Notes under the pieces: model-generated
Seen by the model: only the letters and a program-made list of their open reading frames with translations
Told to the model about the DNA's origin: nothing
Databases searched by the model: none
Position numbers and translations under genes: made by a program
In this document: one piece after another, positions 3,043-19,583 of the stretch
How positions within the stretch are numbered: the first letter of the stretch is position 1
Layout of the letters: each line of letters opens with the position of its first letter
From: Asterionellopsis glacialis
Lineage: Eukaryota; Bacillariophyta; Plagiogrammaphyceae; Rhaphoneidales; Asterionellopsidaceae
Assembly: GCA_014885115.2 (NCBI GenBank)
Contig: WKLE02000508.1
Location: 5,706 to 26,102, forward strand
Direction: 5' to 3'
Length of the DNA stretch: 20,397 bases

Positions 3043-3726
3043 ATGCAGGCAGGATCAAGAGTAAGAATCCATGGTTTGAAAAGTGATCAGGGAATGAAGT
3101 TGAATGGAGCCGAAGGAATCATTGAACATTTTTCTTCTGGTAGACAGAGGTACGCTGTGAGTCTTCCAGGCGATGCTGATCTAAAAATGTTAAAAGAATC
3201 GAACATTGAATTGATAGAATCTGCTTCGTCATCATCAGCAGCAGCGGGAGAAAACAGCAATGCAGTATTTGCAAACGAATCAGCAATGCTGGAACGACTC
3301 AAGGGAATGGGGATGCCACCTGAAATGCTTGCCAACTTGACACCATCCCAAAAGAAAACAATGTTCGAAATGACACAGCGTCAAGACATTGTCGACCGAG
3401 CAAAGCAAATGGCAGGAGTTGATGGCTCTTCAGAGGAAGGAGAATGGAAAAATTCAGCCGATGGGCTATACTCATGGCAGGATTCGGGTAATCATGTGAA
3501 GTTGAAAATCAATAGCAACGTTACAGATAAGAAAAATGCCCAATGCAAAATCACAGAAGAGTCGATAGAAGTAACAACAACGCACGACAATAATACTTTG
3601 TTAAAAGGAAAATTATTTCAAAATATTAATGCTAGCGAAAGTACATGGAATCTTGAACACGATGGAACAATCTCTGTCAATCTTAAAAAAAAATCTCCCA
3701 TGAGGTGGTTAATGATTACTCGATAA
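3043..3726 (+). CDS. CS-domain (p23/NudC-like) protein with N-terminal KOW/SH3-like segment
   Basis: A 227-residue intronless frame from an ATG in the context AAATATGC. Residues about 2-58 (GSRVRIHGL, LNGAEGIIEHF, RQRYAVSLPG) look like a small KOW/SH3-type beta barrel. Residues about 60-75 are Ser/Ala-rich. Residues 80-125 (MLERLKGMGMPPEML, LTPSQKKTMFEM) form a Met-rich helical segment with some resemblance to STI1-type chaperone-binding repeats. Residues about 141-223 match the CS domain: YSWQDSGNHVKLKI, then IEV, LLKGKLF and STWNLE, with a terminal KKKSPMRWL. CS domains are seven-stranded beta sandwiches of co-chaperones such as p23, Sgt1 and NudC, which often work with Hsp90 or Hsp70. A cytosolic co-chaperone or scaffold role is therefore likely, but the client is unknown. 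The CS assignment is firm; the other two domains are tentative. Confidence 0.85.
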   Translation: MQAGSRVRIHGLKSDQGMKLNGAEGIIEHFSSGRQRYAVSLPGDADLKMLKESNIELIESASSSSAAAGENSNAVFANESAMLERLKGMGMPPEMLANLTPSQKKTMFEMTQRQDIVDRAKQMAGVDGSSEEGEWKNSADGLYSWQDSGNHVKLKINSNVTDKKNAQCKITEESIEVTTTHDNNTLLKGKLFQNINASESTWNLEHDGTISVNLKKKSPMRWLMITR

Positions 3727-6032: not shown

Positions 6033-6860
6033 ATGGCAATTACCCCAAAAGAAAAGATAGCACTCTTGAAGCAATTCGCTGCAAATGCCGGAACAAATGG
6101 CGTCGATGAATATCTTTGCGTTCCATTCGGGACTGGAGCAAAGGTGGTCCAGTGGCTCAAGCGAACTGTTTTTCGAAAACAGGTGGAACTCCAAAAGGCG
6201 GCTTATCTTGATGCAACTCCAAAGGGAAAGAGGCAAATTGCTCTCAACATTATTGAGTTCATCGAGGCATCCAATGGAATATTTGTTGAATTTGATAAGG
6301 AACTCTGTGACTGGAAACAAGTCACCGATATACAAAGGAAAGTTTTAAAAACTATGCAAGCTTTGAGACAAGATGCCAAGATCTTCCGTCAAAACCATCA
6401 AAAAGAACAAATCCAGTTTTATGCTGAAGTATGTTCCCACAGACACATAATGGAGATCTTCATGAAATACAATGGACAAAACCAAAACCAGAGGGACAAC
6501 CTTAATATATCTTTTCAACGGCCGCAAGAAACACCAAAGCTCCTACTACGTCAAGAGACTGGTCAATCTTTACACAAAGATCCTCAACAACAGCTTGTTC
6601 ACCATACACAGCTGCATCAGAATCAGAATCAGCTGCAATATGAAGAACAGCATCAAGATCAGATTGAAGAAGCACACCAGCTTCTGAATAAGGAGCTATG
6701 CCAATATCAAGGTAGAGAACACCATCGGGGACAAAATGAAGAGACGAATCAGCTGCTGGAGCCATATCCATTCGAACATCAAGACGAAGAAGAACAAGAA
6801 ATCGTAGGACTGGAAGACTTGGGCAACGCAATATGGCCTCTAAGTTTCTCAGACGAATAG
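6033..6860 (+). CDS. DUF6824-like N-terminal domain with Gln/His-rich tail
   Basis: A 275-residue intronless frame starting at an ATG with A at -3 (AAGATGG). Residues about 25-115 resemble DUF6824, a domain much expanded in diatoms: an Arg/Lys-rich helix (VVQWLKRTVFRKQVEL), AAYLDATPKGKRQIALNII, the NGIFVEFD turn, and W94 followed by VTDIQRKVLKTMQALRQ. The N-terminal Gly-Arg-Gly motif usual in that family is absent; the matching stretch reads VPFGTGAK. Residues about 145-245 are very rich in Gln, His and Glu (QNQNQ, HQNQNQLQ, EEQHQDQIEE), giving a disordered or coiled-coil, polyQ-like region. The C-terminus is acidic. DUF6824 proteins are poorly characterised; a regulatory or nucleic-acid-associated role is a guess based on the basic helix plus Q-rich tail. 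The family link is moderate, and the gene itself is well supported. Confidence 0.7.
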   Translation: MAITPKEKIALLKQFAANAGTNGVDEYLCVPFGTGAKVVQWLKRTVFRKQVELQKAAYLDATPKGKRQIALNIIEFIEASNGIFVEFDKELCDWKQVTDIQRKVLKTMQALRQDAKIFRQNHQKEQIQFYAEVCSHRHIMEIFMKYNGQNQNQRDNLNISFQRPQETPKLLLRQETGQSLHKDPQQQLVHHTQLHQNQNQLQYEEQHQDQIEEAHQLLNKELCQYQGREHHRGQNEETNQLLEPYPFEHQDEEEQEIVGLEDLGNAIWPLSFSDE

Positions 6861-7906: not shown

Positions 7907-9121
7907 TTATTTAAATAGGTTGAAAACTGCATCTAAAAATGATTCTTCCACACCCTTTGCAACACCAGGACGTTCACTTCCATCCGCACAACTACCAGTA
8001 CTCCTCTTTGCGTTGAATACTTCGGTACAGGTTTTGAGTAGTTTGTCTTTAGTTGAGGGGGGTAATGAAAATTCCATAGCGCGCTGTTTTTCTTGAACAA
8101 GGATACGCTCTACCCTTGCGTGGTAGGATGTGTCCTGCTGCAAGGATGTAATACTTCTCGCTGATAAACTTGTTAGATTCAATAGTTGCATTCTTCTTGT
8201 AAGGTAGTATTCTCGACTTGCTTCAAGAAAAGGTTTTTCGAAATCCATTTGTTGTACATCTAAGCTTCCCATACCCATGGTTTCGAATAATTCAATAGCA
8301 GATTTGACAAGTATCTTGTCGTGATTCGTACTAGTGCCAACATGATGATTTTGTTGGTCTTGCTCGTAATCTTCTCTATCATCATTGATGAGCTTGATAC
8401 AGGAAGAAGCAATATCAGATTGGAATTCAGTATAGATGATAGCATGAAAAACCTCCAAACCGACTTGATACAAAGTCGGAACACCAAGAACCCGTACATA
8501 ATTATTATCAAGATAGGCAAAAGCACTCTTTAACCATTTGATCATGACATGATGGTTGTACCAACGATGACGAACTTCTTCTAAGAATTGAGTTGCTGAT
8601 TCTTTTGTGTGGGCATTGGTTCCAATGGTTGTACGGAGTGACGGGAGAACATTTGTTTGAAGATACGATTCCATAACATCTCTATACTTTCTGTACAGCA
8701 TAGATTGGTAGTCAGAATCCGGGGCGGCAGAAACCGATTCGACTTTTGCTGAATGTTGCTGCTTTTGCTTCTTCTGTAGCATGCAAAGATTTGTGCAAAG
8801 CTGGTTTGTTTCAATACAAACATCAGATCTGAGTACATATACAGTGCCATTCTCGACTTTTTCGATCAAAAGATCAATTCGCTTCGAATGCAAGAGAGGA
8901 AAGGATATTATGGCAGGCGTGGTTTGGTGAGAAATGATGCAGCATATCATTTGAAATGTTATACTTTTGATTTGCCAAGCCGGGTAGGAGCCAATTTGAT
9001 TGTAACTTGTGCATTTGCAGTGCTTACCTTTTGGATCTTTGACCATGTCTCTTCGAATTCTCTTCCCATGACAGAAGGTGGATGTAGTCAGATGATCAAT
9101 ATCTGAGATTCGAGATAACAT
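7907..9121 (-). CDS. Cullin N-terminal region, C-terminally truncated (CUL1/CUL3-like)
   Basis: A 404-residue frame. Residues about 142-370 read as cullin repeats: YRKYRDVMESYLQ, FLEEVRHRWYNH, MIKWLKSAFAYLDNNYVR, then a LIN-D-RE segment, AIELFETMGM, FEKPFLEASREYYLTRR, YHARVERILVQEKQRAMEF and LLKTCTEVF. In full-length cullins this arm binds the substrate adaptor, and about 350 further residues form the cullin homology domain that binds RBX1 and is neddylated. Here the frame stops about 34 residues after the repeats and no such domain follows. Residues 1-100 do not resemble a cullin, and a strong donor (AAG/GTAAGC, GT at 9027-9026) lies inside them, so the 5' end may be spliced or the start wrong. 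It could be a truncated paralogue, a dominant-negative-like scaffold, or a pseudogene with an intact N-terminal frame. Confidence 0.7.
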   Translation of the reverse strand: MLSRISDIDHLTTSTFCHGKRIRRDMVKDPKGKHCKCTSYNQIGSYPAWQIKSITFQMICCIISHQTTPAIISFPLLHSKRIDLLIEKVENGTVYVLRSDVCIETNQLCTNLCMLQKKQKQQHSAKVESVSAAPDSDYQSMLYRKYRDVMESYLQTNVLPSLRTTIGTNAHTKESATQFLEEVRHRWYNHHVMIKWLKSAFAYLDNNYVRVLGVPTLYQVGLEVFHAIIYTEFQSDIASSCIKLINDDREDYEQDQQNHHVGTSTNHDKILVKSAIELFETMGMGSLDVQQMDFEKPFLEASREYYLTRRMQLLNLTSLSARSITSLQQDTSYHARVERILVQEKQRAMEFSLPPSTKDKLLKTCTEVFNAKRSTGSCADGSERPGVAKGVEESFLDAVFNLFK

Positions 9122-10295: not shown

Positions 10296-11417
10296 CTATG
10301 AAAAAAATGACATAATCTTGTCAAACCCATAAAATGCCGCATACAACATTGATCCAAGGTATCCATTGGCAGTTGTTACAATAAGTCCAGCACCAGGTGG
10401 TGGAGTATCTACCGCATCCCACCGAAGTACCAATACTGGTCGATCATTAGTAACTCCATTATTATGAATATCACTGTTTTTTTGGTAGGCATTACTTGTA
10501 TATCCTCGACCTCGATGCAATACTCTCGCATCATATAGAATAGTATCACCGGCATGTAAACATCCAAGAAGTGGTTTACATGATGGTATCGATATTGTGC
10601 ATGCATCAATGTCACTGCGTTTCTGTTGTCGGTATTGCTCTTGTCGTTCTTCCCATGCATTCTTGAGTTCTAACCATAAGGTATAATGATCTAAATGAGA
10701 TTTGGGCAATAATTCTGTTGGACCATTGAAAGTTACATCCTTCAATGCCACGATGGCTGTTAATCCTGGGAACGTATTGTCTCGGTGCCATATTTGATTC
10801 TTCGATTTGTTAGGTATTGCATTTAGAAATTGTAATTGAGTTAACCGATAATTAGTAATGGAATGCTCTTTAAAGTATAGTTCCACAATTTCTTGTAATG
10901 AAAGTTGCTGAGATGCTTTCTGCTCTTCTTTATTGTTACTTTTTCTTTTATACCAGTTTCTTTTTGTGGTTGTTGATTCGCCCACGATCTTAGGCCCACC
11001 ACCATTGCAAGTACCAACCTGATTCATATCAGTATAATACTTGGATCGTTTAGATATATTACAATGAGCACGTCCACGATTCCAAACAATACTCTTTGGA
11101 TTATCAAATGTTTCCTTTGTTTTAACATTCCATTCGTTTACTTGTAATGGTGACAATGTTTCTTTCACGACAGTTACACCATACTTTTGAAGATTGGCTA
11201 GATGAGAGAGTGGTGCAAGTGATTTTTGTACTGCTGATGATGATGATGATTGCGGTTCAGGAGGAGTTACACGGTAAAGCCATTGTCGAGATGCTTCAAC
11301 TTCAGCAACTGATACATCTCTTTCATCGTGGTTCCTAATAGATACATAAACCCATACTGATGTGGAACCCGCGATTGCCAACAAGGTTGGTTTCCACCAT
11401 TTACTAGACGATGACAT
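10296..11417 (-). CDS. PhyH-like Fe(II)/2-oxoglutarate dioxygenase with N-terminal membrane anchor
   Basis: The first ATG in the frame is at 11417 and gives 373 residues; the frame is open further upstream but starts there only with GTG. Residues 6-27 (KWWKPTLLAIAGSTSVWVYVSI) form an N-terminal hydrophobic anchor or organelle-targeting signal. The catalytic core fits the phytanoyl-CoA dioxygenase family: Q-I-W-H211-R-D213 supplies the HxD iron ligands, followed by a TAIVALKDVTFNGPTELLPKSH segment typical of PhyH proteins. H301 in ARVLHRG is the distal iron ligand. An Arg after it (R326 or R332 in RPVLVLRWD) is placed to bind 2-oxoglutarate. All key residues are present, so it should be active, hydroxylating an unknown substrate. 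A Lys/Asn-rich insert (about 150-170) is unusual. A spliced N-terminal extension starting at 11799 is possible. Confidence 0.88.
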   Translation of the reverse strand: MSSSSKWWKPTLLAIAGSTSVWVYVSIRNHDERDVSVAEVEASRQWLYRVTPPEPQSSSSSAVQKSLAPLSHLANLQKYGVTVVKETLSPLQVNEWNVKTKETFDNPKSIVWNRGRAHCNISKRSKYYTDMNQVGTCNGGGPKIVGESTTTKRNWYKRKSNNKEEQKASQQLSLQEIVELYFKEHSITNYRLTQLQFLNAIPNKSKNQIWHRDNTFPGLTAIVALKDVTFNGPTELLPKSHLDHYTLWLELKNAWEERQEQYRQQKRSDIDACTISIPSCKPLLGCLHAGDTILYDARVLHRGRGYTSNAYQKNSDIHNNGVTNDRPVLVLRWDAVDTPPPGAGLIVTTANGYLGSMLYAAFYGFDKIMSFFS

Positions 11418-12259
11418 TGAAATGTTTGTTTTCAGGAATCGTTTTTCAGATAGAGCTACGAGATGCGGTATACGGACTCTATACACTCGTGTACATGAGT
11501 GAATGACGATTGCTTTGTCTACTGAAGTCTCTTTCCGGTCATCGGTGCAAGTATGATTGGGGCAGCTATGATGTCGGCTCCTCCTGTTGCAAGGATTCCG
11601 TTGATGAATGTGTGGGGGAAAGTGATGTGGTCGCCTACGAAATGTAGGTAAACGCTAAAATCAAAGTTAATTAGAACATTTTATTTTTGTTACTGTATAC
11701 AATAGGATAGAGATCGCACTCAAAAGGAACTTTATGAAAAATGAACGATTTCAAGACGCTTACCACGTGACGGTGGTTTTCGTGCTGGAATTTCATCATC
11801 GATATATTAGAACAATATCAATAGAGATAAGGTTCAGTTTTGGAGGGAACCAAATTCCTACGTACAATTTGTACTAGTATGGTAAAATTCTACGTTGAAA
11901 TACGTAGAGAATACAAAAGGATCCTCCGACCGCAGATCAAAAGCTATTGCACACCACCTTTACTAGACCTAATGTGTCTCTACTAGTAGAGCCGATACTT
12001 CTTGATCTAAAAATAGGTCTGGTTCCTGTCAAGAAAGTAATGACGATCATTATGATTCGTTCTTAGAAATATGTCCTCCTGAATAAAATTGCACATCGGT
12101 TTGACAGTTTTGCTCTCAAAGACTTATTCTTCAATGGTTGACATTGATACATTTGGTAGATGCCATAGGATATCACATTCATATATCTCGATAACGCGTC
12201 ATTTGTAGTTCTGTGACATTATATTGATCGCTTTGCCCGTACTGTAGATCTAGGTCGTG
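11418..12259. other. Divergent intergenic region between oxygenase and nuclease genes
   Basis: Shared upstream region of the minus-strand oxygenase and plus-strand nuclease, so a candidate bidirectional promoter. It contains an exon-like segment (11519-11654), a preceding canonical intron (11655-11763) and a CACGTG G-box at 11764-11769 that overlaps the splice donor. The remainder is AT-rich and unremarkable. Confidence 0.45.
11519..11654 (-). other. Possible exon upstream of the oxygenase gene
   Basis: On the minus strand a donor (CACGTG/GTAAGC, intron from 11763) and an acceptor (TTGATTTTAG, ending at 11655) bound a 109-nt intron of typical size. Downstream, one frame gives 44 codons ending in TAG at 11519 with strong coding character: many C-ending codons and protein-like text such as VGDHITFPHTFINGIL. 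A second frame is open straight into the oxygenase frame, so an ATG at 11799 plus this splice would extend the oxygenase by 91 residues, but that extension is a poor-looking Arg/His/Pro-rich sequence. Which reading is real cannot be settled here. Confidence 0.35.
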
Positions 12260-13348
12260 ATGCCATCATTGTGGAACAAAATTGTTTCGCATTCTATTGC
12301 GGCTTCTTTGGGAGCAGGATTGTTGTCTTACTACAAATGGAGTCTGCAAAAGATTGGAAACAACAAAGATGAAGAACACGATAACGACAAGCTCACAACA
12401 GTAACGATGAAATTGAATGATTTTTCACCATCAATCCCCATTACTATATTTCGACCAAATAAAAATCTTGAAATTGCATTTGATACGCGAACAAGAAATC
12501 CTGTATATGTCTTGGAACATCTAAAAAGAAATCATAAGAACAACAATACCGAAGAAGGAAGCCGGAAAAAATATAATTATCGATTTACAGAAGAAACATC
12601 ATTGGCACCGGAGTTCAGATCACGTAATGGACATTATAGGAATAGTGGATATGACCGTGGACATTTAGCACCAGCAGCAGATTTTGCCATTGGCGATGAA
12701 CGGAATGACACGTTTACACTTACCAATGCCAGTCCTCAAGTCGCAAGTATGAATCGTAAAATATGGGCCAATTTAGAAGCATTTGTTCGCAGCATTGCTG
12801 CAAGAGTAGCTAACGATGAAGAACAACATCCAGCCTTAGACACTTATGTTGTGACTGGACCCTTATGGATTCCAATAAAGCAAATAACCCAACAGGAATT
12901 CCAATATGGGTATAATGGTATTGGTATACCACCTTCCTTGGTTTCAGTACCGACTCACTTTTTTAAAGTTGTTGTGATGTACTGTCCTGAACAAAAGGCC
13001 ATCGCCAAATTTGCGGCCTTTGTTGTTCCCAACACCGAAAATGAGACTAGCAATAAAGATTTCACACAATATTTGGTACGCTGGACTGATTTAGAAGCTG
13101 TTGCTGGCATGCATTTTTTCCCATCCTTGGTAGATGATACCTTTAAGAAAACTGCCGACACCCTTACAGAAGTCATGTGGAACCGAGATGATTCTATAGT
13201 AAAGGAAAAAATGCCCATGCTATTGTTACCATCTTCGAATGCGTCTAATTCCATCGGTACAAAGAAAACTTATCAAAAGCCCAAAGAGAAGTCTAGAAAG
13301 TTGGCAAAGCTTCAACACATTTGCCAAGATGGATGCTGTACACGATGA
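12260..13348 (+). CDS. Endonuclease G-like DNA/RNA non-specific (beta-beta-alpha-Me) nuclease
   Basis: The ATG at 12260 gives 362 residues. The catalytic signature is intact: Y-D132-R-G-H135-L-A-P-A-A-D matches the DRGH motif, where the His is the general base. TLTN156ASPQVASMN165RKIWANLE matches the SNxAPQ...NxxxWxxLE helix of EndoG, with N165 the expected metal-binding Asn. R119, F120 and G124 upstream fit the usual substrate-loop region. The N-terminus (about 1-27) is a short amphipathic and hydrophobic segment with few acidic residues, as in mitochondrial EndoG and Nuc1, so the mitochondrial intermembrane space is the likely location. Such nucleases degrade mitochondrial or nuclear DNA during organelle turnover and programmed cell death. 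The C-terminal 60 residues (Lys-rich, ending CQDGCCTR) are a lineage-specific extension. It ends 57 bases from the convergent Trp-repeat gene. Confidence 0.92.
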   Translation: MPSLWNKIVSHSIAASLGAGLLSYYKWSLQKIGNNKDEEHDNDKLTTVTMKLNDFSPSIPITIFRPNKNLEIAFDTRTRNPVYVLEHLKRNHKNNNTEEGSRKKYNYRFTEETSLAPEFRSRNGHYRNSGYDRGHLAPAADFAIGDERNDTFTLTNASPQVASMNRKIWANLEAFVRSIAARVANDEEQHPALDTYVVTGPLWIPIKQITQQEFQYGYNGIGIPPSLVSVPTHFFKVVVMYCPEQKAIAKFAAFVVPNTENETSNKDFTQYLVRWTDLEAVAGMHFFPSLVDDTFKKTADTLTEVMWNRDDSIVKEKMPMLLLPSSNASNSIGTKKTYQKPKEKSRKLAKLQHICQDGCCTR

Positions 13349-13405: not shown

Positions 13406-16400
13406 CTACATTAGGAAGGTTGACACGGATGCCGCAAAACTTAGACATGTTGCTATGGAGGGAAAGCGTGTGGAAAGAGTCTTAGCTACTCCACTTTCCT
13501 TTTCAAGGCCAGATGGTGTTCTCTTGTTAAAATCTTTCAAATTTAGGCCATCCCAGAGTTCTTGAAAGTAGCAAATTTCTTCCGCTGCTTTTCGTTCTTC
13601 CGTGGTTAATTCTTCCCAACCCTTTTCGTCAGTTTCTGGGACTGACGATTCTGAATCCGTGGAATTCCACATCGTTTCTGTCCACCCCAGCGCAATGAAT
13701 GCTGATTGGACTTCTTCTACTTCCAGTTCCGACCAATCATATGTCTGGTAGTGTGACTGGTAGCAATCCCACACAATCTCTTTCATTCCTAACGATAATG
13801 CGGCATCCTGTTGACTGGAAGTTAGTTCTGAAAATGACAACTTTTCAAGTTCATTCGTTTCAGGTTGGTTCCATGTTTCTTCAGTGTACAGGAGAGTCTC
13901 TGCATCTTCTTTGGAATTCGAAGTCAATTCATCCCATATATAATTATAACGCACACGTGGAAATATTATTGGTGATAAAGGCTCGCCTGTCCATGTATTC
14001 AAGTTTTGGCCGTCCCATATTTCACGAAAGTAACATATTGAATTTGCAGCTTCTTGTTCTGCCGGTGTTAGATCGATCCACTTTTTATCACTGTCCATAC
14101 CCATCGTTTTGGATGCTGCTGCCGTACCAGGCCAACTATCTTTCGTCCATCCCAACAAAATCATATGTTGTTGGACGTTTACATCTTCCAATGCCTCCCA
14201 ACTATATCCACGATAATGATTAATATAACAGTCCCAAACATCACCTGTAAAACCCATGGATAGTGCAGCTTGCTGTTGATCCTCATTTAAACTTGCAAAC
14301 GCTATTTTCTCGATATCATCCGTTCCAGGAATATCCCATGTTGATTGAGTGTACAAAAGTGTTGTTGCGGCCTTCTTTATTTCGTCAGGCTGGTACTGCC
14401 ATTGGCCATACCGATAGTCAGGATACAAAGACATCCAATTGATTACTTCCTTTGTAGGAGAAGTTGACGGAGGAATAGATGGCTCGGTTGTGGTTGATAA
14501 AAGCGTGGGTGCAGGCGAAGTTGATGGTGACAATGACATCGATGGTGATACTGATGGATATTCACTAGGCGATGTTGATGGTGACAGTGATACCGATGGT
14601 GCCACAGATGGCTGCACAGTTTCAGATGGTGCCACAGATAGCGTCGGTGCGATAGACTGCGTTGGTAACTGTGAAGGATAAGCACTTGTCGATGGAGGAG
14701 ACGACTGTGATGGGGACATTGAGACAGATGGAGCAGCAGTGGCGGGAGACCATTCAGATAAATTGAGTCCGTCCCAAATTTCGGGGAACCAACAAATTTC
14801 TTGTGCAGCTTGTTGTTCTGCATAGGTGAGGTCAAACCAATACTTTTCATCAGATTCGGGTTTTTCATCGATGCTGTTGAATAGCTCTTCATTCCACCCT
14901 AAGTCAATGTAGAAACCTTGCACATTGAGAGTAGTATCAAGTTCCTCCCATGAGGCACCCACGTAGTGATTTATATAGCTACATCAAGAGACAAAATTAG
15001 GTGAGCATTAAACAAACATGGTACACATAAAAGCTGGCGTTTTAACTTACCAGTCCCATACTTTCGTGGTAAACCCCATATCCGCCACTACATCTATCTG
15101 TTCTTGCGTTAATTTTGCAGAGGATAACTTTTCGATTTCGGCAGTACCAGGATTATCCCACGTTTCCTTTGTATACCCAAGTATGACTGCATTGGCTCGA
15201 AAAATTTCGTCAAGTAAATCCCAAGGAGCGTAACGAAATTCAGGATAGGTGATCCATTCCTGAATGGGTTCTCGATCCCAAATATTACGGAACCAGCAGA
15301 GCTCCTCGGCAGCCCTTTTTTCACTGACAGTGAGAGCATGCCACATGGAAAGAAAACTTTCAGGAATATCATTGACGTTGTCGGACTCCCATCGCTCTTG
15401 CGTGTACCCCAAATCGATGAAATACTTCAGAAGGTTATACTCTCCGAGTTCTTCCCACGAGAAGTCAAAATAATGATTTACATCTACCGTCCATAAAAGA
15501 GCAAAGAATACCACCGTAAAGCAAAATGAGATACCCAAAGAAAATAAATTTGACAAGGAGAAAATATGTCCTCAAACTCACAACAGTCCCAATTAGCCTC
15601 TGTGAAGCCCAGACTCTGGGCTGCCTGTTGTTCTTCTTCGTACAAGAAAAACCACGAAATGTATTCTATATCCGCTGAAAATGGGTTATTCCATGTTTGT
15701 TCGGTATAGTTCAATTCTCCACTGGCAACTTCACGAAATACTAAATCTTTCTCATCCCAAGGCAGATACCGAAAATCTGGATAAAATATCCAATCTGAAA
15801 GTTGCCTATAATCCCACGTAAACCTAAACCAACACAGTTCTTTTGCAGCAATTTGCTCTTCTGTTGTCAATTCAAACCAATTCTTCTCCTCGGCCTCAGG
15901 GATATCATCAGTATTATCGATGTTGTCCCATTGTTCTTGTGTCCATCCGATTGTACTTAAATGCTTTGCAAGTCCTATTTCTTCAAGGAATGACCATGGA
16001 AATGATCTGTAGTGGTTCACATAGCAGTCCCAAACATGTTCTGTGAATCCTAAACGCTCGGCTGCTTGCTTTTGTATTTGAGACAAACTTTGAAATGCTT
16101 TGTTTTCAATATCTGCAGCTCCTGGAGTATCCCAGGATTCGACACCACTGGTATAGCCGAGCACAGACGCTGCCAGTTTGCTTGGTTCGTCTAGCTGATC
16201 CCATGTTGTATATCGAAAGTCAGGATACGGTGCACCTCGAATTCCGGATTTGCCGACTAGATTGAATAGATTCAAGGACCTCATGTCTGGACGTGCATAA
16301 GCCTCGCTATAACAACAAGGGATGATTGAAGCCACTATGCACAACAACAAAAATTTGCCGTTGAAATAAGTAAAGCCGTTCATCATGGTGGTCAAAATTA

Positions 16401-16449
16401 GTCCTAATTTTGGAATGAGTGGGGCGTGCAACAAGTGTGAGACAGACAT
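13406..16449 (-). CDS. Five-unit Trp-rich repeat surface protein (three exons, 957 aa)
   Basis: Exons 16449-15582, 15483-15051 and 14978-13406 join into one open frame of 957 codons plus stop. Both junctions restore the WDCY-NHY motif that is broken in the raw frames. The first ATG is at 16449; the tandem ATG at 16386 gives a cleaner signal peptide (hydrophobic core about residues 32-46). Five repeat units occupy residues about 75-222, 223-368, 369-510, 619-763 and 773-917. Consensus points are P-x-F-R-Y at the start, LGYT..TWN.PG, IE..sF..L...QQ.AA..LGF...VWDCY.NHY, W..L....LGW....W, and W..LT.EE..AA.E[LI]C[YW]F...WD. Residues 511-614 are a Pro/Ser/Thr linker. The last 19 residues are hydrophobic, as in a GPI-anchor signal. 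I recognise no named family. I infer a secreted, probably GPI-anchored surface or wall protein. Confidence 0.85.
14438..14749 (-). repeat. Pro/Ser/Thr low-complexity linker with degenerate DNA tandem repeats
   Basis: It encodes about 100 residues of PSxSPS-type repeats (SLSPSTSPSEYPSVSPSM). At the DNA level GATGGTGNCA-like 9-18-base units recur degenerately on the plus strand. It separates repeat unit 3 from unit 4. Such linkers in algal wall proteins are typically extended and O-glycosylated, which is inferred here. Confidence 0.75.
14979..15050 (-). other. Intron 2 of the five-unit Trp-repeat gene
   Basis: 72 nt, donor TG/GTAAGT and acceptor TTGATGTAG/C. It is a phase 2 intron inside the Cys codon of the WDCY motif of unit 3. 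Removal restores WDC-YINHY in a single frame. Confidence 0.85.
15484..15581 (-). other. Intron 1 of the five-unit Trp-repeat gene
   Basis: 98 nt, donor TGTT/GTGAGT and acceptor GACGGTAG/AT. It is a phase 1 intron inside the Tyr codon of the WDCY motif of unit 2. Removal restores WDCYVNHY and joins the two frames exactly. Confidence 0.85.
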
Positions 16450-16515
16450 GGGACGGAGGGAGGCGAATAATTATGCAACCGCGTAGCGAATTTGATTTCC
16501 GGTCGAGTATCTAGA

Positions 16516-16523
16516 TGACGTCA
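16516..16523. promoter_or_regulatory. CRE palindrome TGACGTCA upstream of the five-unit gene
   Basis: A full cAMP-response element 67 bases upstream of the ATG at 16449 (130 from the ATG at 16386). In diatoms TGACGT and ACGTCA are the published CO2/cAMP-responsive elements bound by bZIP factors. I saw no other full palindrome in the window. Function is inferred from position only. Confidence 0.4.
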
Positions 16524-16741
16524 AGAATGAAGAAACAGTACTTTTTTAAGGCAATAAAATTTGAGAGTCCATAAGCAATTCCAAGTCTAAAAATAGCCCC
16601 CTTTGCTTGTTAATTGCTTTTTATAATATATGTATTATGCCTATAGATTCTAAATCTTGGAAAGTAATTAGTAATATACTTTTTAATTATTATGACGGGG
16701 AAAATTTCAAAAATCAGTACCTGTACCGGTAAAGTTTTTCT

Positions 16742-16761
16742 TGTACCAGGTACCTGGTACA
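16742..16761. repeat. Perfect 20-bp GTACC palindrome
   Basis: GTACCAGGTACCTGGTAC flanked by T and A is fully self-complementary over 20 bp and contains a central GGTACC. A related GTACC lies 18 bases to the left (16723-16727). It is the best copy of the dispersed element. Confidence 0.7.
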
Positions 16762-17348
16762 GTGCTGTAGTTGAGGACCTGATTTGAACACTCTTTGAAA
16801 CTCTAGATTTATAAGGGGAATATTTTAGTAGAGATTTAAACCCGCCGGTCCCATAATCCAATGTCCTCTCTATCATAAGTAGGACTAAATAGAAGGCTAA
16901 ACAAGTTCTCATTACTGTATCCTCCATTCTTTATTGGCAGAGTTGAAATTTTCGACAACTGAAAATGTCAATGTGGATATGGACTCAGAGTCTGCAGAAA
17001 GAAGTACCAATATTCTCTAGACAGCTGTATCTTATGCCTATTTTCGTCTTAATGTCTGGCTTGACAAACATGCTAAAAATATGTATACAGCCAGAATACC
17101 ATGATGCATCTGGGTACTGGTTGAAAATAGAAGTAAACATATTAGATACTGCGCTTGTTAATCCTGTCCTATACGCATAGTACAACTTTTCGTCCTTTAC
17201 CAGGTAACCGTTCTTTCTTGCTTTTTCTTCTAAAATATTTGTATTTTACTTGAGAGAAGGCATATTGAAATGATTCGCTATTCCGTTCATTAGCTTTTAA
17301 AGTCCTTACTGTACTGGTGTTAACTTATAAGAATTATTAAGGCTGATG

Positions 17349-17363
17349 TACAGGGTACCTGTA
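17349..17363. repeat. Short inverted repeat TACAGG-GTA-CCTGTA
   Basis: Six-base arms with a 3-base loop, of the same CAGGTACCTG flavour as the other dispersed palindromes. Confidence 0.4.
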
Positions 17364-17783
17364 GGACATTCATGTGGCCGGGTCGATTTGAGTCGTGAAA
17401 ATGACACTAAAAGGTTTCGCGGTTTAATGCAACAGACGAAAAGTCACAGTAGACTGGAACTCGCAATTTTTGTTTTAGATTTCGGGAGAATCTCGATAAA
17501 AGACGATCAATCTACTGTCAAAATAAACTTTAACCTATTACGTAAACTTTGCCTGCCTGTCATTTCTGATTTGTGCTTCTAAGAGCTCTGTCACTTGAGA
17601 GTTTTTATACCCATATTTACTATAATCAATAATCAACAGGCGTTCAACTCTGTTCAACCACAATGCCAATGTATTCATGACTTGTAACGCTGCAGTGGTC
17701 ACATTCTTTTTTATGTATTTCATATGGACAATAGATGGATTATATAATCTTAATTTAGATTGCATTTTTTTTCGAGCAATAAG

Positions 17784-19583
17784 CTATATCTCAAATAACA
17801 CAAAGCCTGCATTGAAGGTCAACGTAAGAAGAAAAGCAAAAGAGAGTGCCCGTCCGTTGTAACCTGTTGACGTGTCATCATCATCACTAATCCTACCACC
17901 ACTGGTAGTAGACGTGCTCCAACTTGAAATTGGAATTCCATTCCAAGTTTCACGAAAGTAACAAATCTTCTTTGCACCGGCTTTCTCCTCAGGAGTTAGA
18001 TATTCCCAATCTTTGTCGTTACTCATAGGTTCAGCTGCATCACCATCCCATGACTCTTCACTCCATCCCAAGGCCATGTAGGCTTCGTGTACTTCCGCTT
18101 CAACTAATTCAGACCAATCATAATTATCGTAGTGATTGATGTAACAATCCCATACAACATCCATAAAGCCCAAAGATGCTGCCAAGCCCTTTTCGGTTTC
18201 TGTTAAGCCATCAAACGACCATTCTTCAATACTGCCCGTGCCTAAAATATTCCAAGTTTTTTCAGAATATGACAATCTCGTTACAGTTTCTTTATTATCA
18301 TCATTCAAATCTTTATAGGCGACATATCGAAAGTGGGGAAAAGGCAATGCATCCCATGTTAATAAATTCAAACCATCCCAAATTTCTTGAAAGTAGCATA
18401 GTTTTCTGGCCGCAAATTTTTCATCAACTGATAGCGTAGACCAAGCGGCATCAGCTGTCACTGGTCGAAGTGTGTTACTATTCCAACTATCTTCATCCCA
18501 CCCCAACATTTGGAAGGCAGAATCAAGGCCCATAATTTCTAACATGGCCCATTCGTAGTCACCATAATGTGCCTGATAACAATCCCATGTCTCTTCTGTA
18601 AAACCCATGGCAGTCGCTGCTTCTTTCTGACCACGATCTAGGTTTGAAAATGAAGTGTTTTCTAAATCATTTGTACCAATTTCATTCCAACTATTTGATG
18701 TATAGGATAACACAGATGCTTGGTTGCGTGTGTCGCCATCAATATCAGCATATTTTTCATAGCGAAAGTACGGGAAAGGTAAAAAAGTAGGTAAGGGGGT
18801 TGGAGCAGGTGTAGTTGGTGATGCAGTTACAGGTGGTTTCGTGGGATACATTGTGGGTGCCAATGATGTGGGAGATGGTGTTGTTGGGACAGGCATTTGT
18901 GTAGGTGCAAATGGATCAAACTCTGTAGGTGATGCTGTAGGTTGAGGTGCAGCTGTTGGTGACATTGTTGTTGGTGCATATGTTGGTGCATCTGTATAAT
19001 TTGTCAAATGTTCTTCATCCCAAAGTTGTTCAAAGAAACAAAGTTCATCTGCTGCTTCTTGTTGTGTTTCAGTCAAATTAATCCAATCTGCCGTATCTGT
19101 GATAGGTGCATCAATGTCACCTTCCCATGATTTTTCAGACCAACCCAAGATTCTAAAAAATTGCTGTACTTCCTCATCTTCTAAATCGTCCCAATCATAT
19201 CCTTCGTAGTGATTAATGTAACAGTCCCATATTTCCTCGATGAATCCTAATTTTTTAGCTGGGTTTTGACGATTTCTTAAATCGGAAAAGGCTAAATATT
19301 CAATTGTTGCAGATCCTGGTGTATTCCACGTTTCTTCGGTATAAGTCAAGTCCGATGCTGATGATCTGTCTGCTCCGTTCAATGATGACCACAACACAAA
19401 TCGAAACTCAGGAAAGTCCTCATCTTCCTCAAAATCAATTATGTATTGCCCATTCGCCTGGGTCATGATAGTGGAAAAGAGAAACGAACTCAACAAGAGA
19501 ATAGTTGATAATGATAATAAGGAACCATTCTTTCTTCTTTTCATCGTCGTGCGCCTGACTTTATCGCCGTGATACGTGTTCAT
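17784..19583 (-). CDS. Three-unit Trp-rich repeat surface protein (single exon, 599 aa)
   Basis: One uninterrupted frame from the ATG at 19583. A second ATG (residue 14, at 19544) directly precedes the basic n-region and hydrophobic core of a signal peptide (residues 21-40, cleavage probably near ANG). Repeat units are at residues about 57-196, 270-410 and 415-555, with the same consensus as the neighbouring five-unit protein. Each has one Cys in WDCY and one in LC[YF]F, exactly 61 residues apart in all three units. Residues 197-268 are a Pro/Thr linker (APT, SPT, PTP repeats). Residues 556-578 are Ser/Thr/Gly/Asp-rich and 579-599 are hydrophobic to the end, as expected for a GPI signal. It is a tandem paralogue of the five-unit gene, and I recognise no named family. 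I infer a secreted, surface-anchored, acidic structural or adhesive protein. Confidence 0.87.
   Translation of the reverse strand: MNTYHGDKVRRTTMKRRKNGSLLSLSTILLLSSFLFSTIMTQANGQYIIDFEEDEDFPEFRFVLWSSLNGADRSSASDLTYTEETWNTPGSATIEYLAFSDLRNRQNPAKKLGFIEEIWDCYINHYEGYDWDDLEDEEVQQFFRILGWSEKSWEGDIDAPITDTADWINLTETQQEAADELCFFEQLWDEEHLTNYTDAPTYAPTTMSPTAAPQPTASPTEFDPFAPTQMPVPTTPSPTSLAPTMYPTKPPVTASPTTPAPTPLPTFLPFPYFRYEKYADIDGDTRNQASVLSYTSNSWNEIGTNDLENTSFSNLDRGQKEAATAMGFTEETWDCYQAHYGDYEWAMLEIMGLDSAFQMLGWDEDSWNSNTLRPVTADAAWSTLSVDEKFAARKLCYFQEIWDGLNLLTWDALPFPHFRYVAYKDLNDDNKETVTRLSYSEKTWNILGTGSIEEWSFDGLTETEKGLAASLGFMDVVWDCYINHYDNYDWSELVEAEVHEAYMALGWSEESWDGDAAEPMSNDKDWEYLTPEEKAGAKKICYFRETWNGIPISSWSTSTTSGGRISDDDDTSTGYNGRALSFAFLLTLTFNAGFVLFEI
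18780..18995 (-). repeat. Pro/Thr-rich linker of the three-unit protein
   Basis: It encodes about 72 residues dominated by P-T-x and S-P-T. It is placed between unit 1 and unit 2, i.e. directly before the final two units, as in the paralogue. Confidence 0.75.

Follow-up and report, generated by a model that had tools for sequence, protein, structure and literature searches.

Trp-rich four-segment repeat proteins of predicted surface location encoded by two adjacent genes in the diatom Asterionellopsis glacialis, with two-segment relatives in bacteria

Several kinds of diatom extracellular protein have been described, and three of them come closest to the locus considered here. Adhesive trail and GDPH-domain proteins are secreted products of multi-gene sets (PMC7335047, PMC8027222); the epsilon frustulins, for which a "tryptophan-rich domain" is named, are secreted wall proteins, some of which join Pro-rich linkers to a Trp-rich part, with frustulins carrying Cys motifs termed ACR and with the Trp-rich part in Fistulifera annotated as a ricin-B lectin domain (PMC4712521); and the silicalemma-associated proteins (SAPs) combine a signal peptide and a transmembrane segment with R-x-L sites, R-x-L being described as a cleavage site of biosilica-associated proteins (PMC5647440). 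In this study, we analyzed a 20,397-nucleotide stretch of A. glacialis DNA (the window; GenBank assembly GCA_014885115.2, contig WKLE02000508.1, positions 5,706 to 26,102, in an assembly of 40.3 Mb in 1503 contigs), in which two adjacent genes, A and B, encode predicted secreted proteins built from Trp-rich repeats. Like the adhesive trail and GDPH-domain proteins, they belong to a multi-gene diatom set, but the GDPH motif is absent from both, and vWF-D was not found above the cut-off in gene B or in the two open reading frames (ORFs) of gene A that were searched. They also differ from the frustulins in lacking the ACR motifs (CQGDCD and VPGCSG) and in having an all-helical unit model. On motifs alone, A and B were judged to be neither frustulins nor GDPH proteins. 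The SAPs resemble some members of this family in signal peptides and transmembrane segments and carry R-x-L sites, of which A has one after its signal-like stretch and B none; their conserved 28-residue cytoplasmic segment and Ser-rich lumenal region distinguish them from A and B, and the accessible part of their description mentions no Trp repeat (PMC5647440).

An earlier reading of the letters alone (the original prediction) had placed eight repeat units in the two products, and a unit profile recovered five in A and three in B, each of approximately 147 residues and scoring 194–213 bits. Because the profile was trained on those eight units, the independent evidence lies in the outside homologues, of which 34 were found at E ≤ 0.001, and in tests on the segments. 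Each unit consists of four segments of approximately 35 residues, and the six pairwise comparisons of segment profiles by hhalign gave probabilities of 97.0, 96.2, 97.4, 95.5, 97.5, and 92.5, with none of the 100 column-shuffled controls reaching the real score in any pair. As judged by these profile comparisons, the four segments within a unit are homologous to each other, which agrees with the 20 and 12 motif copies that had been counted in A and B. The motif proposed for them was borne out in its fourfold recurrence and required correction at its first position, given as Tyr or Trp, which in segment 2 is usually Phe in the consensus.

Conservation was evaluated over 86 full units, collected from the 34 homologues, the two window proteins, and ORFs from eight regions of genome G000. 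Trp was kept at six columns (in 86, 86, 85, 83, 81, and 80 units), as were two Cys (86 and 85), a His (86), an Arg (84), a Glu (83), and a Tyr (83). The Cys pair and the invariant His, which lay outside the motif first proposed, are thus among the best conserved residues of the unit. Both Cys occur in 85 of the 86 units, the exception being P0023/264-410, which has no second Cys, and the simplest reading is that they very probably form a disulfide within the second half of the unit in secreted members. The window units contain all the defining elements of the family, namely the four homologous segments, the Cys pair, and a WDC-x2-NHY motif; the units are acidic (mean isoelectric point 4.3, range 4.05–6.31) and hold 7–12 Trp each.

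The AlphaFold2 model of unit 2 of gene B (pLDDT 96.5, pTM 0.89) consists of four helical segments with similar patterns, the third deviating somewhat, in agreement with the all-helical organization and equivalent segments expected earlier. Each segment is laid out as a short helix, a turn, a helix of approximately 10 residues, an LG[YFW] loop, and a short helix with a Trp end. For none of 41 units, 36 of them taken from homologues and 5 from the eight of the window, was a Pfam-A family found at E ≤ 0.01, and the gene B product and two of the three gene A ORFs gave Pfam rows below the cut-off or nothing; NCBIfam gave nothing above the cut-off for the same gene B and gene A sequences and for six two-segment proteins. 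A Foldseek search with the unit model returned no significant fold match in PDB or BFVD. Designed TIM barrels, which appeared as PDB profile matches (E 0.0007–0.006), were rejected, being matches to artificial proteins in which not one stretch is significant by itself; the two-segment profile also matched three FXYD peptides (E 0.84–0.87), which was attributed to chance. In the literature covered, with most subscription journals outside its scope, no such family is described, and five motif strings and the accession FisN_31Hh089 are unmentioned. The family hence stays unrecognized, as had been supposed, and on these sequence and model comparisons, the repeat defines a new domain family whose general kind, the helical repeat surface protein, is known, and which possibly has a new fold.

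The few relatives from named organisms are diatom proteins (Cyclotella, Fistulifera, Thalassiosira, Minutocellus, and Chaetoceros, three of these names having been checked against the taxonomy), and the source genome holds further relatives on 8 contigs besides this one. Judged by simple hydropathy, a signal-like stretch opens 27 of the 44 family sequences, 18, including A and B, end in a glycosylphosphatidylinositol (GPI)-like hydrophobic stretch (in P0026 with a tail of 11 residues), and 12 end in a transmembrane segment plus tail. The hydropathy of A and B fits a signal peptide and a C-terminal hydrophobic GPI signal, as a general measure and not a GPI-specific prediction, and Pro, Ser, and Thr make up 43% of A and 38% of B outside the units. 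A surface location of the family, which had been proposed at the outset, is well supported by these predicted starts and ends. Some members show other arrangements. P0028 carries a Trp unit and a Hint (Hedgehog/intein) self-processing domain in one chain, followed by hydrophobic segments, and an autoproteolytic release of its surface domain may be possible. In two loci of G000 (L012, contig C488, 1872-4560; L015, contig C531, 2103-5001), one Trp unit is followed by a long Pro/Ser/Thr stalk, and the ORF directly downstream encodes a PQQ_2 beta-propeller (E 8e-9 and 1.5e-11, respectively), in L012 with a GPI-like hydrophobic stretch at its end; their positions suggest that the unit ORF and the propeller ORF would constitute one gene. 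An N-S-R-G motif recurs right before the first unit in P0011, P0014, P0015, P0017, and L014.

Two-segment relatives in bacteria went beyond what the original prediction had foreseen. Seven small two-segment proteins were aligned and used to scan genome contigs by means of two short peptide patterns, so that the resulting numbers are a lower bound. The scan gave 64 pattern matches and 4 confirmed loci, of which 3 were accepted, in metagenome-assembled genomes (MAGs) of a beta-proteobacterium, a member of the Methylococcaceae, and a member of the Leptospiraceae. L020 (Ruminococcaceae, E 3e-6) was rejected, its match lying inside a 355-residue ORF without the LGY...W pattern. When read by eye, the ORFs flanking L017 and L018 resemble bacterial ones, one neighbor in L018 being a DUF2330 protein. 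In four partly overlapping genome samples, the module was found in 1 of 369, 1 of 398, 1 of 48, and 1 of 200 genomes, the sole positive being each time the sample's starting genome; in the order of the Methylococcaceae MAG, which we take to be Methylococcales, it was found in 10 of 201 genomes, counting the starting one, with G627 and G686 giving weak partial matches only. In viral contigs, a scan for the diatom unit yielded 16 pattern matches, none of which was confirmed as a relative. The stand-alone bacterial form has 78–82 residues; in five further loci, the module forms the C-terminal end of short proteins that begin with a signal-like stretch (L044 and L045) or of membrane proteins (L043, L046, and L047), two of which carry Coa1. 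A similar small, secreted-looking protein adjoins the gene for Coa1 and the two-segment module in both bacterial genomes concerned (L046, 1950-2318; L047, 1023-1415).

The relationship of these modules to the diatom unit was indicated by a profile made from diatom sequences only, with which eight bacterial proteins scored 43.8–54.3 bits, compared with 6.3 for the next-best of 578 ORFs and 10.8 for the best of 1600 composition shuffles, with the caveat that the alignment by which L043-L047 were detected (A3) contains three diatom half-units. In the three alignments shown, the matched profile positions were 71-137, which is the second half of the unit, and the profile of the small proteins matched the first half at 98.9% and the second half at 99.1%. 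The two-segment protein P0039 was modeled with a pLDDT of 86.4, both segments showing a similar helix pattern. The bacterial module is thus homologous to the diatom unit and has a similar predicted helix pattern, whereas it has two segments instead of four and lacks the Cys pair and the NHY motif; P0035-P0041, the seven small proteins, and the spliced L016 protein have no Cys at the positions of the pair.

To follow the history of the unit, a tree of half-units was built from 15 of the 41 units; it has few columns, is unrooted, and leaves many forks unresolved. First halves formed one group (support 98/99) and second halves another (96/86), and as the halves group separately, the four-segment unit was probably assembled once, before units multiplied. 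The bacterial modules grouped with the diatom second halves and the small diatom proteins, away from the first halves; 12 of 13 bacterial-labeled rows fell into one group (97/89), with P0036, whose source is not established, outside it. In P0001 and in L009, L010, L011, and L014 of G000, full units are followed by an extra second half, indicating that a half can be gained alone. We tentatively propose, with somewhat less than even confidence, that the 35-residue Trp segment builds a new alpha-helical fold, which bacteria share as a two-segment module; after a transfer between bacteria and diatoms, the recipient probably being an ancestral diatom, the module would have been doubled, locked by a disulfide, and expanded into a large set of anchored surface proteins contributing to the cell coat. 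With regard to A and B themselves, the adjacency of the supposed tandem pair was confirmed, whereas a recent duplication was not supported, as unit 2 of B is no nearer to units 1 and 3 of B (39–40% identity) than to units 1, 4, and 5 of A (38–45%) and a mostly unresolved unit tree does not join A and B.

As to function, A and B would be secreted and then tethered to the plasma membrane on its outer side, a GPI anchor being the probable attachment, and from their sequences both secretion and anchoring are highly probable. They would present strings of compact, acidic, all-helical domains on Pro/Ser/Thr-rich stalks, the second half of each domain being probably locked by a disulfide; the four-segment domain would derive from the doubling of a two-segment module found in bacteria and in small diatom proteins without a signal peptide. 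Such domains would most likely be rigid repeated modules on flexible stalks that hold or attach the cell coat, and an adhesive, cohesive, or structural role, and any ligand, can be suggested only by analogy with other diatom extracellular proteins. On this reading as a whole, that of membrane-tethered cell-coat proteins with a cohesive or adhesive function, our judgment is evenly balanced. Several points weigh against it. Fourteen of the 44 family sequences fall in neither C-terminal class; they include fragmentary sequences, incompletely modeled genes, and proteins whose long N-terminal part may hold the anchor. The signal and anchor assignments are those of simple hydropathy, the module is not inherently adhesive, as its occurrence in signal-less small proteins and in membrane proteins of bacteria demonstrates, and a pattern search of A and B revealed neither of the motifs known from the GDPH proteins and frustulins.

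Other readings have to be weighed against that of a cohesive cell coat. The units could form a glycan-binding surface lectin or receptor, in which the conserved Arg, Glu, and His and the aromatic residues would be a putative sugar or ligand site and the transmembrane members would signal inward. Trp-rich sites are common in lectins, and the high conservation of these residues (Arg 84, Glu 83, His 86, and Tyr 83 of 86) is consistent with a binding site; moreover, the units of the transmembrane proteins with extra half-units cluster by position across species (P0001 with L009, L010, and L011), and the short tails of proteins of this type end alike. Nevertheless, neither a Pfam family nor a significant PDB fold match was obtained, and in the alignment neither the bacterial nor the small forms have the His of the unit, so that we consider this reading rather doubtful.

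A role as a matrix protein of the silica cell wall (frustule), which would be sorted to silica deposition vesicles and end up within the wall or as a coat on it, appears more improbable still. It would accord with secreted acidic proteins in several diatoms and with an R-x-L site that follows the signal-like stretch and precedes the first unit in 5 of the 27 proteins that could be examined for it, including gene A, where 1.3 were expected and 4 of 2000 shuffles were as high. However, three of the five (L009, L010, and L011) constitute one paralogue group and are not independent, gene B has no such site, the frustulin motif is absent as described above, and transmembrane tails, GPI-like ends, and bacterial relatives are unlike a role confined to the wall. 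Finally, it is very unlikely that the unit is a known alpha-helical repeat (TPR, HEAT, Myb/SANT-like, or similar) diverged past the reach of sequence searches, a view to which the all-helical model with its regular Trp and stray Pfam matches below the cut-off, such as Myb_Rap1 (E 0.049), would lend themselves.

Diatom surface proteins matter for attachment, biofouling, and cell–cell contact, yet many of them are still orphans at the sequence level. With its confident model, probable disulfide, relatives in bacteria, and recurrent architectures, the domain defined here allows a set of "hypothetical proteins" to be annotated and tested, and it is a candidate both for a fold absent from the PDB and for the movement of domains between bacteria and diatoms.

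The features of the window are listed in Table 1.

Table 1. Coordinates of genes A and B, their parts, and other genes in the window
Feature	Position	Strand	Description
Gene A	16449-13406	-	957 aa, predicted secreted, 5 units, two introns
Gene A exons	16449-15582, 15483-15051, 14978-13406	-	three exons, joined by splicing
Gene A intron 1	15581-15484	-	GT-AG, phase 1, within unit 2 at WDC/Y
Gene A intron 2	15050-14979	-	GT-AG, phase 2, within unit 3 at WD-C/Y
Gene A unit 1	15787..16227	-	aa 75-221; unit profile
Gene A unit 2	15242..15783	-	aa 223-370, holds intron 1; unit profile
Gene A unit 3	14732..15247	-	aa 369-516, holds intron 2; unit profile
Gene A linker, units 3/4	14444..14722	-	Pro/Ser/Thr-rich; translation
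Gene A unit 4	13976..14425	-	aa 619-768; unit profile
Gene A unit 5	13514..13963	-	aa 773-922; unit profile
Gene B	19583-17784	-	599 aa, predicted secreted, 3 units, single exon
Gene B unit 1	18978..19415	-	aa 57-202; unit profile
Gene B linker, units 1/2	18777..18977	-	Pro/Thr-rich; translation
Gene B unit 2	18345..18776	-	aa 270-413; unit profile; modeled with AlphaFold2
Gene B unit 3	17901..18341	-	aa 415-561; unit profile
Gene B C-terminal hydrophobic end	17784..17860	-	GPI-signal-like; hydropathy
DNA/RNA non-specific endonuclease gene	12257-13348	+	PF01223
PhyH-type dioxygenase gene	10296-11486	-	
Cullin-like ORF	7907-9121	-	
DUF6824 protein gene	6033-6860	+	
CS-domain protein gene	3043-3726	+	

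Gene B is transcribed, in the source species or one very near it, as indicated by the MMETSP transcript protein P0042, which agrees with residues 351-599 of its product at 248 of 249 positions; for gene A, no transcript was encountered. The true start of translation may be Met14 in gene B and Met22/23, near 16386, in gene A. The latter gene spans more than one ORF and requires both GT-AG introns, the splicing of which recovers WDC-Y-x-N-H-Y at each junction. The two introns lie at a near-identical codon of consecutive units, offset by 2 nucleotides and with unlike phases.

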